A stretch of DNA of 36,521 bases from Candidatus Giovannonibacteria bacterium (lineage in GTDB: Bacteria; Patescibacteriota; Minisyncoccia; UBA11713; 2-01-FULL-45-33): the NCBI GenBank assembly GCA_016176295.1, contig JACOXN010000011.1:1-36521 (forward strand), given 5' to 3'. The translations under genes were made by a program, and so were the position numbers. Below the pieces are notes generated by a model. That model was not told the DNA's origin. It was given only the letters and a program-made list of their open reading frames with translations, and ran no database searches. Positions 1 through 8,800 of this stretch are shown here, one piece after another (the stretch's first letter is position 1; each line of letters starts with the position of its first letter).

Positions 1-1
1 T

Positions 2-2251
2 TATGACGGATCGATCTTGCGAGTTAACGGCGATGCCGATCTTTACGGCGCAGACCTTAGATTGGGAACCGGTTCAGCCACTACTACTTTGACTTCTGCC
101 GCCGGTTTTCTTGGAATCGCTTCAACTTCTCCATGGGGTCTTCTTTCAATAAATCCGAACGGTATTTCAGGACCGGAATTTGTAGTCGGTTCTTCATCCG
201 CCACGCACTTTGTCGTAACTAACGGCGGAAAAACCGGCATAGGCACTACATCTCCACTTTCTCTTCTTACGATTGACGGAAGACCGGCTTCCACTTCTCA
301 GCAAACTGTCGGATTGGACGAATACTTGTTGTTTAATTTGACCGGCGGCGGCACACAATACGGCAACCAAATTTATTTGGATAATGCGCCGACCGGAGTC
401 GCGAACACGGCTGTTGCGCAGATGATGAAAATAAGGGATAACACGACTCTGACAAACACCGTTCGTGGTCTTGAAGTTCAAGCCGACGTCGGAAGCAATA
501 CTCAAGGAAGCAGTATCGCGATAGGCGGCTTTGGCAGAACTTTCGGAGTGCGCGCTATTACCACCGGCGATGCGGGAGGAGTGCAGTTGCCTGCCGGTCT
601 TTTTGCCCAGACTGAAGGCTCTACGCAAGGAAACGCCGTCCGAGCATATTCAACTTCTATAACAAGCGCCGACCTCGTTTATCTTTTGCAGGACACTTCC
701 GCTTTCACAGGTTCTGCGCTCCGCATCAATACTGCGGCAACGGGCGGCTCTTTTACAGGCAACCTGGCTCGATTCCAAGTAGCCGGAGTGAACAAATTCG
801 TGGTAACTGCCCATGGAACTACGACCATTGGAGACGGTTCCACTCAGGCCGGGCTTCAAATCGGAAAAGGAGGACTTTGCGTGGATAACGACGGCTCGTG
901 TACGGCTTCCACGACGGGAAGAATTACCGCGGTATCGTATAACACTGCCAACTCCGACTTGGCTGAAACTTATGCCTCAAACGAAGAACTTGAACCCGGA
1001 GATATCGTTTACACCCAAGGAGGCCTCACCGTAGGAAAAGCCGCTCCGAAAAACAAAACTGCAATAATCGGAGTAGTTTCCACCAAGCCGGGGCTGGAAC
1101 TTGGATTCGATGATAAACAAAGCGCGAAGAATAATTATCCCATCGCTTTGGTCGGACGCGTACCGATAAAAGTTTCCACCGAAGGAGGGAACATCAAGCC
1201 GGGAGACAAAATAATTCTTTCATCTTTGGACGGAGTGGGGATGGCCGGAGGCAAAGGGCCGATAATAGGCGTCGCATTGGAAAGTTTTGACGGCACGAAT
1301 GCTTTATCGGAAGAGGTTGTAAATCAGTTGATGGATAACGAACCGAAGTCTTCGCCTCCGCCGGTGGCCGAAGAGGATACGAATCCAAATGCCACGACCG
1401 ATTGCTATTACAGCGGTGGTGATGCTTTGGGTAGGGCGAAGAAAGATTGCAAACCTTTAACCTCGGATAATAACGCTGATAAAAACGCAGATATAACGCA
1501 GAGTGCGGAAGGTGCGGATTCTACGCAGATAGATAATGGGCCGGCTTCTGAATCGTCCACTTCCGACGGCAAGACTGTAAAAATCGGTAAGATATTGGTA
1601 TTCGTAAATCTCGGGTACTCCGACCTTGGCGTGGATGCCGGAACCGAGGCCTGGGCAGTAGACCAGGAAAGCGGAAAAGTAAGGTCCAATTATTCTCTCG
1701 ACATGGACGGAAAGGACATAATAAATGCAAGAAATATTTTGTCCGCCTCCGGGAACTGGAGCATTGGAGACGACGGCAAGCTGGTGGTAAAAGAAATCCA
1801 GACCGAAAAACTTTGCATAGGCTCGACATGTATTACTGAAACAGAATTGAAAGCTTTGTTGGAAAAAGCAGGGCTGGCGCCGACTTCGCCTTCAGAAGGG
1901 GGAGAATCTCAAGGAGTTAATGACACTGAAGCCCCTGTTGTAACTGTGATAGGCGACAACCCCGCTACTATATATATAGGGGATGCTTACTCCGATAACG
2001 GGGCGTCGGTAACCGACAATATAAACGAAAATTTGGGATACAAAATAAAAGTTGACGGCACGGAGCTTACAGCCGGAGAAAAAGTTCAAATCGATACTTC
2101 CGAGGCCGGTACGCATACAATTACATTTACGGCGACCGACCAGGCGGGTAATACGGGAACGGCGGAACGGACGGTTAACGTTATTGAAATAAATCAGCCC
2201 GAATCTTTCCCTGTTTCCGAGTCTTCGGCTACTTCAACCCCTACTCTATAA
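2..2251 (+). CDS. Large surface/tail-fibre-like protein, 5' partial; C-terminal Ig-like (DUF5011/HYR-type) domain
   Basis: Frame open to the left edge (YDGSILRVNGDADLYG...); GIGTTSP-type repeats; NSDLAETYASNEELEPGDIV segment typical of CPR S74-like fibre proteins; Ig-like domain PVVTVIGDNPATIYIGDAYSDNGASVTDN...GTHTITFTATDQAGN. Confidence 0.8.
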   Translation, partial: YDGSILRVNGDADLYGADLRLGTGSATTTLTSAAGFLGIASTSPWGLLSINPNGISGPEFVVGSSSATHFVVTNGGKTGIGTTSPLSLLTIDGRPASTSQQTVGLDEYLLFNLTGGGTQYGNQIYLDNAPTGVANTAVAQMMKIRDNTTLTNTVRGLEVQADVGSNTQGSSIAIGGFGRTFGVRAITTGDAGGVQLPAGLFAQTEGSTQGNAVRAYSTSITSADLVYLLQDTSAFTGSALRINTAATGGSFTGNLARFQVAGVNKFVVTAHGTTTIGDGSTQAGLQIGKGGLCVDNDGSCTASTTGRITAVSYNTANSDLAETYASNEELEPGDIVYTQGGLTVGKAAPKNKTAIIGVVSTKPGLELGFDDKQSAKNNYPIALVGRVPIKVSTEGGNIKPGDKIILSSLDGVGMAGGKGPIIGVALESFDGTNALSEEVVNQLMDNEPKSSPPPVAEEDTNPNATTDCYYSGGDALGRAKKDCKPLTSDNNADKNADITQSAEGADSTQIDNGPASESSTSDGKTVKIGKILVFVNLGYSDLGVDAGTEAWAVDQESGKVRSNYSLDMDGKDIINARNILSASGNWSIGDDGKLVVKEIQTEKLCIGSTCITETELKALLEKAGLAPTSPSEGGESQGVNDTEAPVVTVIGDNPATIYIGDAYSDNGASVTDNINENLGYKIKVDGTELTAGEKVQIDTSEAGTHTITFTATDQAGNTGTAERTVNVIEINQPESFPVSESSATSTPTL

Positions 2252-2294
2252 AATAAAATGATTACTGAAACAAAAAAAATAAATCAAACCAAAA

Positions 2295-2325
2295 ACACCG
2301 CCAAAAATGACGGAGCTTTCGGTGT
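2295..2325 (-). terminator. Possible terminator of tRNA-like unit
   Basis: Minus strand ACACCG-N19-CGGTGT followed by TTTT; short stem and long loop, so weak. Confidence 0.3.
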
Positions 2326-2397
2326 GGACCCGGTGGGATTTGCACCCGCTTCCTCGTGTGGCAACAACGAGATGTTACGTATATACACTACGGGTCC
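2325..2397 (-). ncRNA. Degenerate tRNA-like element
   Basis: Minus strand GGACCCG TA GTGT ATATACGTA ACAT C TCGTT GTTGCCA CACGA GGAA GCGGG TGCAAAT CCCAC CGGGTCC A: perfect 7-bp acceptor, 4-bp D stem (one G.U), standard arm lengths; mismatches in anticodon and T stems; no GG in D loop; T loop TGCAAAT instead of TTCAAAT. Confidence 0.5.
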
Positions 2398-2423
2398 AGG
2401 TCCACGAGATTATAGTAAAATAG

Positions 2424-2449
2424 AAAAAGCCCCTTTTCAAGGACTTTTT
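2424..2449 (-). terminator. Intrinsic terminator of small RNA unit 2
   Basis: Minus AAAAAGTCCTT-GAAA-AGGGGCTTTTT, 11-bp stem ending in a T run. Confidence 0.75.
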
Positions 2450-2494
2450 CTAAGCCACACTAGTTTGTCCGTAGTTTTACGAACACCCCGTTGT
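2424..2494 (-). ncRNA. Small structured RNA, unit 2 (~70 nt)
   Basis: Promoter TTGACA-N16-TATAAT directly upstream; internal hairpin GTTCGTA-AAAC-TACGGAC; terminator downstream. Confidence 0.5.
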
Positions 2495-2500
2495 ATTCCT

Positions 2501-2528
2501 ATTATACACTCTTCAAAAACCATGTCAA
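2501..2528 (-). promoter_or_regulatory. Sigma70 promoter for RNA unit 2
   Basis: Minus TTGACA(2528-2523)-N16-TATAAT(2506-2501). Confidence 0.75.
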
Positions 2529-2596
2529 TGACAAGTGTGAATAAAATATTAAGAATAAAAAGTAAAAACATACTAAAAAATCAACAAAGAAAATGG

Positions 2597-2621
2597 CACT
2601 TGGCGGCTAAGCCGCCAAGTG
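2597..2621. repeat. Perfect 12-bp-arm palindrome
   Basis: CACTTGGCGGCT-A-AGCCGCCAAGTG between the two RNA units. Confidence 0.8.
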
Positions 2622-2636
2622 AAGAGATCGTAAATC

Positions 2637-2712
2637 AAAAAGAACCCTTTTACAAGGATTCTTTTTGCAGCACCCAGTTTTGGTCTGTAATGCACAGACA
2701 TACTAGCGTTAT
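2637..2712 (-). ncRNA. Small structured RNA, unit 1 (~75 nt)
   Basis: Promoter upstream, internal hairpin GTCTGT-GCATT-ACAGAC, terminator downstream; same layout as unit 2. Confidence 0.5.
2642..2661 (-). terminator. Intrinsic terminator of small RNA unit 1
   Basis: Minus GAATCCTT-GTAA-AAGGGTTC followed by TTTTT. Confidence 0.75.
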
Positions 2713-2718
2713 AGCCCC

Positions 2719-2746
2719 ATTATACACCCCTCAAAAACCATGTCAA
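2719..2746 (-). promoter_or_regulatory. Sigma70 promoter for RNA unit 1
   Basis: Minus TTGACA(2746-2741)-N16-TATAAT(2724-2719); near-identical to the unit 2 promoter. Confidence 0.75.
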
Positions 2747-2883
2747 TGGTACAGTCCGCCAGCCAGTATGAATATTGAACCAAGCCCTCCGCCTCCGGGC
2801 ACAGAAGTTAGCACTTCAACTCCCACACTATGATTAACAAACTAACTAATAAAACAATAATAGTAAAAAATAAAAGAAACGCC

Positions 2884-5800
2884 ATGAAATTCAGAACAAA
2901 AATTTATATTCTGTCATTTGCCCTTATTTTCACCTGGTTTTATTTGCCGGCTTTGATAAATGTAGCGCAGGCTGCGGATGTGGCGGTGGATACCACGATT
3001 TTGACCACCAATACTTCCGGCCACAGCGGAAGCCCTACCGTGGTTTGGACGTCGGACACCACGGGTTATGTTTTTTATTTGGATTCCGCCGGGGGCATTT
3101 CAATGTCCTCAACCACGGACTCCGGAGCGACTTGGAGCGCTTCAAGAAACGTGGACAGCGCGAACACAACTGATGCCGTCAGCGTTGCCGTGTGGTATGA
3201 CAGATGGACCCGCGGGGATACAACCGGAAATCTCATTCACATTGCAACGACAGATACCAGTGTGGACGATGTTTATTACACCCAGCTTGACCTTTCGACC
3301 GGCGCTTTTTCAACCAGCATCGTGGGTACTACCCAGGGCGCTACCTGCACCCGAGGCTCTTCCTGCTATACATCCATAACGAAAGCCGAGAACGGCGTGC
3401 TTTATATGACGGCATCGGACGGCGGGGATTCGTGGGTCGTGAGCTGTTCTGCGTCATGCACGGGAGCCAACTGGTCTGAAATAACCGGAGCTTTCGGCTC
3501 TACGCCCGATACCGGTGACGATGTTCCGATTCTAGTTCCGCTGGTGGGGACCAATAATGTAATGCTCATCTATGCCGACACTTCAGCCAGCACCATCGAT
3601 TACAATGTTTACTCCGCCACTTCGTCCGCTTGGTGGTTTACTGCCACAAAAAACGCAGTAACAGCCGCAGAATCCAATACTTCTTATGAAGCGCAGCTTC
3701 TGGGTGTTACTACGGACATTTATACCGGCATAACTTATCTGACTTACATTGATGACGCGAATGATTACACGACGCAAGACCACGACGTCAACGTCTGGAG
3801 CTATTCATCGACAACAATTGCTTTTGCTCAAGCAACTGAGCCGGTTACCGATGCATCAGGGGGGTTAACCGGAGCAAAAATAGCCATAGATACGAACACT
3901 AACGATCTTTACGTTATTTACGGCAGGCGATCCACTATCGGCACGGCGGCCACAGCCAACCTTTATTACAAATATTCATCCGATGGAGGCGCTAACTGGA
4001 GCGCCGAATCTTCAGCGATAAACAGCACCGCCGACGATATAAACGCGATAGGAATAAATATCATGTCCGCGGACCGGATCGGAGCGACCTGGAATTATAC
4101 GACTGCTCCTAATGCCGACCAGCAATTCTATAATACCGTAGTCAATATTCCTTTCGTAATTTCAGGTAATCTTTATACCGATGAGGGTACCACGGCATTC
4201 AATTGTTCTTCTTCCGGCAAAACCGTAAAAGCATCCATAAACGGCGCGGCGCCCATATCAGGCACATGCACAGCTTCTACCGGCGCATACTCGATAACAT
4301 ACAGGCCGGGAATGGGTGCGGGCACGCCGGTCAGCGTATGGGTTGATGGCGCTTCGACTTTTCGTTCGTTCGCGCTTACCAAAGCTTCAACTACGGACAG
4401 TATTACCAACCTCAAACTCTACCAAAACAGGGTAATAACGCGCTATGAGGCCTCGTCCGGCACCACGACCGCAATTTCGGATTTATCCATATACGACGGC
4501 GATAATGACACCGATATTATGTTCAAAGCCAACGGCGGAACTTTGGAAGTAAACGCAGGAAATATGCTGTATGTCTGGCCGGGTACGGAATTCGCCCCCA
4601 GTGGAGCGGTAACACTTCACGGAGATTCCACGAACTCCGCCGATGTGAACGGTTCCTTACGACTACCTTTCGGTACAAATCAGACCGCCTCCACGCAGGC
4701 CGGCGCAACGCTGACGATGGGCGCCAACAATCTTACTCTGGGAGGAAACTGGTATGCTTCTTCTTCGGCTTCGTTTTCGAACACGGGGACTGTTACATTC
4801 AATGCCACAACCAGCACCAAGAATATAATCGCGACTTCGACCAACTTTTATAATGTTACGTTCAACGGTTCCTCCGGCGGATGGACCTTTGGAGCAAATT
4901 CCGCAACGACAACCAATAACTTTACGATAACAACCGGAACTCTGACTGCACCTTCCACGGGCATGGCGGTGCAAGGCAATTTTACACAGAACGGGACATT
5001 TGCCAATAACTCCGGCACCACTACTTTTTACGGACCTTCGCAAACAGTTTCAGGGACATTGAATGCCGGGTCCGCTTTGGGAAACATCCTAATCAATGGC
5101 AATTCCAATCTTAGCTCTGCTAACTGGTACAATACGGACTGGCTGTATCGCAAGAAGATATCCATCGATAAAACAAAAGTCGTAGCAGACCTCACCGATT
5201 TTCCGGTGCTAATTTCTCTCACCGATTCGAACCTTGCTTCCGGCGCGCAATCCGACGGAGATGATATTCTCTTTGCGGCGGGAGATGGAACGACCAGATT
5301 GCCTCACGAGCTTGAACAATTCACCTCGACCACCGGGACGCTCAACGCCTGGGTGAAGGCCAATGTTTCTTCCACGACGAACACGGATATTTACATGTAC
5401 TACGGCAACTCCGCCACTTCTTCGGAAGAAACTCCGACTTCCGTATGGGATTCGAATTATGTCGGAGTGTGGCATATGGCGGAGGATCCTTCCATATCTA
5501 CGGATGGCGATTGCGGAGGGGGAACAAAAGAGGTTTGCGACTCCACTTCTAATAATAGTGATGCGGACTCAGCAGGTTCTATGACTTCCTCAGACCTTGT
5601 TAACTCTCCTTTTGGAAAGACTCTGGATTTTGACGGGGTGGATGATTATTTGGGTGTTACCAGAAATTCTATTTTAAACAGTACTTTTGACGGCAATCAT
5701 ACGGTTTGTCTGTGGACGAAAAACAATTCAGCGGGAACAGTGCAAAGATTATGGGAAATTAGGGATACCAGTAGTGGGGAACACGCGGCGATTTTTAATT

Positions 5801-8800
5801 ATACTTCTGCCGGTAAGGTCCATTACTATGAAAGTAGTGAGCTTGATGCCGAAGCATTGGGTTCTACGGCATCCAATCTCAATAATGGACAATGGCGGTA
5901 TCTCTGTTTTAGCCTAAACGGCAGTACCCAAACCACTTATGTTGACGGCGTCCAGGATGCTACGAGAACACAAGTTACCGGCGTAAATACTGACTCGCAA
6001 CTTGCATTTGGTACTGACCCAACATCTCCACAGCAGTATTTTCCCGGCCAAATCGACGATATTCGTGTTTCAAATATAGCCCGCTCTGCCGGGTGGATTA
6101 CCACTGAATATAACAACCAGTCTGCAACTTCAACTTTCTATACGGTAGGTTCCCAGCAGGGGCAGGATTTTTGGTACAATATCGACTGGTCATATCGAAA
6201 GAAAATAACGATAGATTCCGACAAAGTCGTCGCGAACTTGCCGGATTTTCCGGTTTTGGTGTCGCTCACTGATTCTGACCTTGCTTCCCGCGCGCAAGGT
6301 GACGGCGACGATATTCTTTTTACGACGGCAGACGGCGTAACCAGAGCTCCGCATGAAATTGAGCAGTACACCTCGACCACGGGCACTTTGAACGCCTGGG
6401 TTAAAACCGATGTATCCTCGACCACGAATACGGTTTTATATATGTATTACGACAACGCCGCCACTTCCTCGGAAGAAACTCCGACTTCCGTATGGGATTC
6501 GAATTATGTCGGAGTGTGGCATATGGCGGAGGACCCATCCATATCTACGGATGGAGATTGCGGAGGGGGTACGAAAGAAGGCTGTGATTCGACGAGTAAT
6601 AATAACGATACCGATTCAAATGGGACTATGACTAGTTCTGATATTGTAAATTCGCGACTTGGAAAGGCTATAAATTTTGATGGCACTGACGACTATATGA
6701 GTTTAACACTGGCTAATGCCGGCACAAGTTTAAATCAAGGCACATTTTCAGGTTGGGTAAAATTGGATTCAAAAGATGCTTACGATGCAATAATGGAAAC
6801 TAGAGCGTCTACATTTGCAGGATTAATAATGAGCGGCGCAACCAACAACCCTTTAACATTCGCATGGGATGGCGTAATGGCTGAATATGATGCCGCCACC
6901 GGTTTGAATATGTCTTTGGCGGCGTGGTATTTTGTTGCCGGCGCTATTCGCTCAAATGGAGTGGATTTGTATCTTGGAGATGCAAGTGGGGCATTAAGCA
7001 CATATACGGATTCCAACTCGAATGGATTGAAAAATATAGAAGGGGTATGGAATTTTGGAAAAGATCCCAATTTTTCCACAAGATATTTAGATGGGTTGAT
7101 CGATGAACTTCGTATTTCTAATGTGACTCGTTCTTCCGGTTGGGTTACCACCGAATACAATAATATGTCCGCCACATCTACTTTCTATAGTTTAGCCGCA
7201 GAGGCATCGCAGGGCGCAAGCGTTACATTCTCGAACAATGCTTCTACGACGAACTTGATGATAAATTCTGGAATTTTAACGGCTCCTTCAGCCGGCCTTC
7301 TTTCCGTTTCCGGGAATTATTCGAATTCAGGGAAATTTACAGCCAATAGCAGTACGCTAACTTTGAATGGCTCTGCATATCAGGCGTTGTCCGGCACCAT
7401 GACCGGGACATCGGCATTTTATAACCTGGAGGTTACGAATAATTCCGCGAGCACAACCTTTGGCTCCGCCGTCGCCGCCACGAATAATTTTACGGCGCAA
7501 ATCCCCGGGGTCCGATTGGGCTTTAAAGCGGGAGCTGCCGCAACATCTACATTGCAGAACATTATTCTAAGCGGAAGCGCCGCAACTCCCGTGTATGTGC
7601 ATTCAGCGACCGGAGGTTCAATGTGGGGATTGGCGGTCCCGGGGACTAGGTCGGTCGCGTACGCGAACATAATGGATTCCAACGCTTGCAGCGGATATGA
7701 CAATATAGATGCTTCCGGCGGGACGGTTACTGATTCCGGCAACAATACCTGCTGGACGTTTGCTGCCACCCAGTCCGCAACTTTGGCGTTGGGAACTCCC
7801 GGGGTCCAAGAAACCAATCAGTTCACATCCGCATCGGTTTCCAACGCCAACCTTTTGAATTTTCAGCTTACTCCTTCGGTAGGCTCTGTAACTATCACGG
7901 GACTTTCGCCGTCCATCAGTTTATTTGGAATCAGCGCTTCGGATATCACAAATGCCCAGATATTCGTGGATTATGACGGAGACGGTCTGCAGGATTCCGG
8001 CGACCTTGCGATATTGGGTTCAGGGTCGGTATCCTCGTCGGTTATCACTTATTCGGGAAGCTATTCCACCTCCACTTCAAGGAATTATTTCTTGCAAGCG
8101 GATGTGGCTAATCTCGCAGCGGGTGATGAAATGTGGCTGACTTTGGACCAGTTGGATATCACGACCACCGCTTCCAAATCAGGCTCTTCGCAATTCGGAT
8201 ACCACGTGCTAAATAGCAGCGGCGTTGCATCGGGCGGAGGCGGCGGAGGAGGAGCGGTCGGAGCGGGTATCGTTTCAAATGCCAATGCCGACCAGGGCGG
8301 AGGAGACTCAATAGGCGCAGAGGACGGATTTACCGCTCCCACTGCCAATGGAACCGGTCTCACCACTCCGGGGAATGCCAACAACTGGACAAACGGCGGC
8401 AATGCCTATGCATCGGATAATTCTTACGCCACCGCCGGCACGGCCGTAGCACAGGACTACGGAAACTTCGGCTTTAGCATACCTTCATCCGACACTATTA
8501 CCGGCATTGACGTAAAAGTGGAAAGCAAAGGCTCGACTGCCGCCGGAACTTTCTCCGTCGCCCTTTCCTGGAACGGAGGCACTACCTATACCACCGCCAC
8601 TTCAAGCTGGACGCTTTCGACATCCGACCAGGTTTTCGTCATGGCCACTTCTTCCGATCTCTGGGGACGCGCATCATGGTCTCCGTCTGAATTTTCAGAT
8701 GCCAATTTCCGCTTGAGAATTACCGCCGCACCCTCGTCAAATACCGTCTCGGTTGACGCAATTCAGGTGAAAGTTGATCACCAGGCCACCGGCGGAGGAG

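Follow-up and report, generated by a model that had tools for sequence, protein, structure and literature searches.

What are the two short RNAs apparently encoded on the minus strand near one end of the window, the whole 36,521-nt stretch of Candidatus Giovannonibacteria DNA analyzed here, and on what might they act? A preliminary description took them for a duplicated structured non-coding RNA family. There is such a family, with 64 distinct loci and strong covariation, but the RNA first noticed, here called RNA-A, is only one half of a pair. The other half, RNA-B, is a tRNA-like RNA encoded immediately downstream.

Two cassettes and a tRNA-like gene

Two plus-strand genes flank the cassettes, of which the first encodes a bacterial Ig-like domain and the second laminin-G domains; the contig also encodes dnaG and the main sigma factor, and the genome measures 828 kb. 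As first described, both promoters read TTGACA-N16-TATAAT exactly (12/12, spacer 16), and they are the only 12/12 sites within positions 1-6000. The 28-base promoter block occurs three times in the genome with at most three mismatches, a reversed control giving no occurrence. The central hairpins, GTCTGTGCATTACAGAC (2699-2683) and GTTCGTAAAACTACGGAC (2484-2467), are where they had been recognized, terminator hairpins are found in both cassettes, and the two RNAs fold far better than their dinucleotide shuffles (z -4.55 and -5.85; 0/200 shuffles as good). Two points had to be revised. The two RNAs are indeed there, but the units are not equivalent, unit 2 being without a tRNA-like partner; and the cassette of unit 1 was correctly drawn but stopped short, as the downstream tRNA-like gene belongs to the conserved unit. 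The features of unit 1 are as follows.

2501 to 2528, minus strand: RNA-A promoter, TTGACA at 2528-2523 and TATAAT at 2506-2501, 12/12
2421 to 2494, minus strand: RNA-A, about 74 nt, with outer stem P1, hairpin P2, single-stranded linker and terminator
2467 to 2484, minus strand: P2 hairpin GTTCGTAAAACTACGGAC, whose 3' strand ACTACGG can pair with CCGTAGT of the RNA-B acceptor-5'/D-arm region
2454 to 2460, minus strand: RNA-A linker GTGTGGC, complementary to GCCACAC in the RNA-B anticodon arm (2362-2356)
2421 to 2452, minus strand: RNA-A terminator, a hairpin of 14 pairs, conserved in the family, with a T run after it
2409 to 2417, minus strand: RNA-B promoter -10 region, TACTAT (2417-2412) overlapping TATAAT (2414-2409), 9/12
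2325 to 2405, minus strand: RNA-B gene including the 5' extension, degenerate tRNA-like
2398 to 2405, minus strand: RNA-B 5' extension GTGGACCT, complementary to the acceptor 3' strand GGGTCCAC (alternative stem)
2325 to 2397, minus strand: RNA-B tRNA-like body, from ARAGORN, Rfam tRNA and the 64-element table
2391 to 2397, minus strand: RNA-B acceptor 5' strand
2372 to 2388, minus strand: RNA-B D arm
2354 to 2370, minus strand: RNA-B anticodon arm
2333 to 2349, minus strand: RNA-B T arm
2326 to 2332, minus strand: RNA-B acceptor 3' strand, with A73 at 2325
2298 to 2313, minus strand: possible RNA-B terminator

The start of RNA-A in unit 1 (about 2494) was placed from the -10 box, and the RNA is supported by its fold (z -5.85), by base-pair covariation in the family and by its complementarity to RNA-B, which in P2 is an exact 7-nt match. 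The terminator loop holds TTGAAA (2440-2435), a -35-like site for RNA-B from which TACTAT is spaced by 17 nt. ARAGORN calls the tRNA-like gene at 2397-2324 on the minus strand and it makes a poor tRNA (Rfam tRNA, 30.3 bits). The window copy may be weakening, perhaps decaying, because its RNA-B carries A3:U70, its linker match extends over only 7 nt and nested cofolding of its own RNA-A and RNA-B gains almost nothing (-0.7 kcal/mol).

Some further observations concern the surroundings. A plus-strand open frame of 191 amino acids (2258-2833), without a Pfam match, runs antisense to both RNAs; it ends much like the surface-protein gene that precedes it, which suggests a past rearrangement. The third copy of the promoter block lies on contig C4 of the same genome (L003, 1528-1450), where a terminator hairpin follows directly and the RNA-A hairpin domain is absent; another minus-strand promoter of the same type occurs near 775-700 of L003. 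A promoter-only repeat, our first working idea, was dropped, the third copy being the one without the hairpin domain.

A conserved pair in the Patescibacteria

Homologues with conserved structure exist in number, and what is conserved is RNA-A together with RNA-B: blastn against relatives gave a joint match of ~215 nt in several families, and the 64 distinct loci collected are almost all from Patescibacteria. When 85,462 species genomes were scanned with a pattern, 26 loci came back, most of them under the label of a Patescibacteria lineage (Nealson-, Uhr-, Yanofsky-, Giovannoni-, Moranii-, Falkow-, Azam-, Campbell-, Sungii- and Gribaldobacteria); three carry no label but 'bacterium', and one, possibly mis-binned, is given as Methylomirabilis. 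With covariance model R1, 32 of the 387 genomes of the class yielded 42 loci scoring 80 bits or more, and a phylum-wide sample searched with the covariance model added distant relatives in other classes. The 64-element table omits L083 and L110, the latter of which, with an 11-nt match, is probably a real element.

Occurrence is patchy, some genomes carrying two or three elements, and the repeat unit of about 250 bp is found in intergenic regions that have nothing in common (fusA/tuf, rpsG/fusA, beside alaS). Linkage to one protein family was considered and rejected, as neighbors vary (fusA/tuf, rpsG, alaS, atp genes, ftsZ, prfA, PriA, surface proteins; identities from translations and a few Pfam scans). 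Viral contigs, phages and plasmids gave no match to the element, which lends no support to a phage element. Contig ends are where several of the elements are found (G361:C11:149, G355:C3:24, G196:C8:41, G071:C6:118, the end of G229:C24, and G671:C18:123), as would happen if assembly had broken off at nearly identical copies. At L077 (1318-1758) an ordinary tRNA-Thr gene begins 4 bases after RNA-B, and at L030 (1053-1715) an open frame near the element resembles, by eye, a REP-associated tyrosine transposase.

RNA-B resembles tRNA-Ala

RNA-B has the cloverleaf of the Rfam tRNA family (RF00005) with its D/T-loop elbow, several relatives scoring 36-59 bits. Among the 64 loci, U55 occurs with G18G19 in 13/13 and G55 with G18G19 in 0/51, a co-occurrence that corresponds to the D-loop/T-loop contact of the tRNA elbow, and there are compensatory changes in the anticodon and T stems. 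The bacterial alanine identity set consists of A73, G2-C71, G3.U70, G4-C69 and G20 (PMC9976931). G3.U70 and A73 are each present in 62/64 elements, the window copy being an exception at position 3; among the 32 tRNAs of the host genome G3.U70 occurs only in the two tRNA-Ala genes, and many RNA-B copies also carry the acceptor of host tRNA-Ala(UGC), GGGCCCG/CGGGTCC. By its sequence, RNA-B thus resembles a paralogue of tRNA-Ala and would have the tRNA fold derived from it.

What RNA-B lacks are the features of a canonical elongator, namely a decoding-competent loop, a constant anticodon and a purine at position 37. Its 'anticodon' takes twelve different triplets in the 64 loci, UGA, UAG, UGG, CGA, UGU and UGC among them, which an ordinary tRNA would not do. 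With a pyrimidine, C or U, at position 37 in 61/64, normal decoding is unlikely.

RNA-A is complementary to RNA-B

The RNA-A linker is the reverse complement of the RNA-B anticodon loop and the 3' strand of the anticodon stem, as a rule over 8-13 contiguous Watson-Crick pairs, and the hairpin part of RNA-A is antisense to the acceptor-5' strand and the D arm. The Watson-Crick run between the upstream RNA and the anticodon arm averages 10.6 for cognate and 5.5 for non-cognate combinations (z 28.7, by a permutation that ignores phylogeny); in 38 held-out loci, outside the set used for pattern and model, the values are 10.66 and 5.51 for mismatched partners (z 21.6, with the same neglect of phylogeny). 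Duplex energies for the acceptor/D-arm contact likewise favor cognate over mismatched partners (z -13.1 in the family and -11.1 in the 38 held-out loci); in the first 26 loci, duplex energy is -40.1 kcal/mol for cognate and -29.3 for mismatched pairs (z -11.6), against z -1.4 for the T-arm control region of the same loci.

As a safeguard for tests uncorrected for phylogeny we rely on a tRNA control and on comparisons within genomes. Genuine tRNAs of the same genome give a mean run of 5.35 with RNA-A and a maximum of 9. In genomes with several copies RNA-A mostly matches its own neighbor best: L025 and L037 have runs of 12 and 11 with their own partners, and cross values of 4-5. The same four genes, identically ordered, flank L048 and L050, and yet both halves of the pair have changed in step, the linker from GTTGGGTGCTA to CTGCGTGTCAA and the anticodon arm together with it. 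Complementarity is thus maintained by co-variation, as between an antisense RNA and its target, on the evidence of the held-out loci and of same-genome specificity, and the predicted pairing of RNA-A with RNA-B is strongly supported by these comparisons. Nested cofolding gains only modestly from cognate partners (-6.2 versus -1.7 kcal/mol) because both contacts cannot be drawn without a pseudoknot.

RNA-B also has a second potential conformation. Its 5' extension, GUGGAYC, can pair with its own acceptor 3' strand, GGUCCAC; the pairing run averages 8.14 in the 64 elements and 3.90 in genuine tRNAs, and in L077 and L079 base changes keep the pairing. Together, RNA-A and the extension would open three of the four RNA-B arms, the T arm staying.

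A model for the pair, and its alternatives

How might the two RNAs work together? The reading that we favor, and hold to be somewhat probable, is that of a two-gene antisense module in which RNA-A would pair with and unfold an alanylatable, probably non-decoding RNA-B. RNA-A (about 75 nt) would be the dedicated antisense partner of RNA-B, itself made from its own downstream promoter. First contact would be made between the single-stranded linker of RNA-A and the exposed 3' side of the RNA-B anticodon loop, a predicted U-turn loop (U33-N-R). Pairing would then spread by strand exchange, P1 engaging the anticodon stem and P2 the D arm, while the 5' extension captures the acceptor 3' strand. RNA-B would be neither charged nor active because its tRNA fold is lost. 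Free RNA-B, on the other hand, would adopt a tRNA fold bearing the alanine determinant G3.U70/A73 and be alanylated, probably without taking part in normal decoding.

The main rivals are a cis-acting switch and an active hybrid. A switch in cis, which we judge improbable but worth weighing, would consist of a single read-through transcript that refolds from a tRNA to a structure with long-range pairing and back, and so controls termination or tRNA maturation by a T-box-like logic. It would suit the constant order, orientation and close spacing in all loci, the terminator between RNA-A and RNA-B, the single-molecule folds, which often pair the two, and the GGUGGA extension opposite UCCACC, which recalls the UGG/CCA contact of a T-box. 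Against it stand the lack of a downstream gene under control and the signs of a separate RNA-B promoter. A -10 box lies just before the 5' extension, with TAnnnT in 63/64 and at least 5/6 hexamer matches in 68% of loci against 15% of shuffled ones, and in L072 and L074 the widened gap between terminator and RNA-B holds a new -10. The RNA-A promoter averages 10.75/12 in the family against 7.93 when shuffled, with at least 10 matches in 53/63. Because RNA-A has this near-consensus promoter and RNA-B its own -10 box, two separate transcripts are likely.

The active species might instead be the hybrid itself, with free RNA-B inactive and the complex serving, for example, as a scaffold or guide that presents the acceptor/T-arm minihelix. 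The structure would be self-consistent, with the T arm free and the 5' extension supplying the acceptor helix. We regard it as unlikely, since elbow covariation and conservation of G3.U70 make sense only with selection on the whole tRNA fold as well, and since no linked protein gene recurs among the neighbors. It is very doubtful that RNA-B is an ordinary tRNA gene beside an unrelated upstream sRNA or attenuator: ARAGORN and Rfam do score it as a tRNA, but its 'anticodon' varies among homologues, position 37 is a pyrimidine, RNA-A co-varies with it, and real tRNA-Ala matches (e.g. L087 and L112) have no RNA-A. A neutral relic, a functionless inverted duplication of a tRNA gene, would account for the sequence of RNA-A, which looks like the antisense of the RNA-B 5' half in permuted order, and for the degraded window copy, but is strongly disfavored and barely credible with complementarity surviving sequence change at 64 loci in many lineages and promoters and terminators intact.

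Returning to the antisense module, we tentatively entertain a further step, with no great expectation that it will hold: an RNA-only toxin-antitoxin or selfish module in which RNA-B would be a mimic of Ala-charged tRNA whose anticodon loop is non-alanine or non-decoding, harming or modulating translation, and RNA-A the unfolding antitoxin. Such pairs would have diversified, mostly without cross-reaction, and have spread to intergenic sites in Patescibacteria genomes. Its basis is the adjacency, diversification and patchy multi-copy occurrence of the elements.

An orphan RNA-A in unit 2

Unit 2 retains an RNA-A with terminator, and also the -10 box that follows.

2719 to 2746, minus strand: promoter of unit 2, TTGACA at 2746-2741 and TATAAT at 2724-2719, 12/12
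2637 to 2712, minus strand: orphan RNA-A, start inferred, 57.7-bit match to model R1, with P1 CTAGT/ACTGG, P2 at 2699-2683, linker ACTGGGTGCTG at 2678-2668, terminator at 2666-2637
2597 to 2621, no strand assigned: palindrome CACTTGGCGGCTTAGCCGCCAAGTG, at the expected start of the tRNA-like partner

No tRNA-like partner follows unit 2, and against the RNA-B of the window it has no clear match (longest run 4). A search of its own genome for a partner found AGCACCCAGT at two places, unit 2 itself and C14:11195. Since the expected starting place of RNA-B is taken by a dispersed palindrome, unit 2 is an RNA-A orphaned of its partner, and RNA-A could for that reason have other targets. The palindrome is a dispersed repeat in this genome (G000 C8, C9, C25 and C4) and in relatives; its copies are often paired, a few hundred bases apart, and resemble bacterial REP sequences.

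Relation to known systems

Antisense RNAs are known from control pairs such as ColE1 RNAI/RNAII, CopA/CopT and the type I toxin-antitoxin RNAs. RNA-A appears similar to these in being a short RNA with a strong promoter and terminator, in its predicted hairpin or linker contact with a U-turn target loop, and in the many, seemingly mutually specific variants within one genome; it differs in that it would target a tRNA-like RNA, where those act on an mRNA or a replication primer, and in that the two genes are tandem on the same strand and do not overlap. As in T-box riboswitches, one RNA would pair with an anticodon loop, and the acceptor end faces a UGG-like stretch. Unlike a T-box, however, it has no downstream gene, its partner tRNA-like gene is next door, and the contact covers 8-13 bp including the anticodon stem, not a codon. 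In place of a gene leader with stem I, specifier loop and antiterminator we find a tRNA-like gene and a terminator with unrelated neighbors, and Rfam T-box models gave no match in the window and 10 loci at the gathering cut-off. The tmRNA is another tRNA-like RNA with G3.U70, a feature shared by RNA-B, which differs in being only 85 nt long and in showing no tag reading frame, whether by inspection or by annotation; the L040 contig also carries a tmRNA distinct from RNA-B.

The pseudo-tRNA tRNAOther of Bacillus cereus is, like RNA-B, tRNA-like and probably non-decoding; the part of the report cited here describes it as poorly charged with lysine and does not mention a partner RNA (PMC3399842). 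RNA-B differs from it in keeping an alanine determinant and in having a co-evolving partner. In the window and the elements, Rfam at the gathering cut-offs gave no family beyond tRNA itself; low-threshold matches (rimP, traJ and others) were rejected, lying far below the cut-offs and reflecting terminator hairpins. We found no description of a tRNA-like RNA with a tandem co-evolving antisense partner in the open-access literature. Pseudo-tRNAs are known and so are antisense RNAs; their tandem co-evolving combination is, as far as we have found, previously undescribed.

What would such a pair mean? Known antisense RNAs control mRNAs or replication primers, while here a tRNA-like RNA comes with its own tandem partner, whose bases have tracked it one by one in evolution; we found no description of this type of RNA control. 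The module makes non-coding RNA accessible to testing in a very large group of bacteria, most of them uncultured, and provides natural RNA pairs, each specific to its own partner, by which a tRNA fold appears to be turned on and off.
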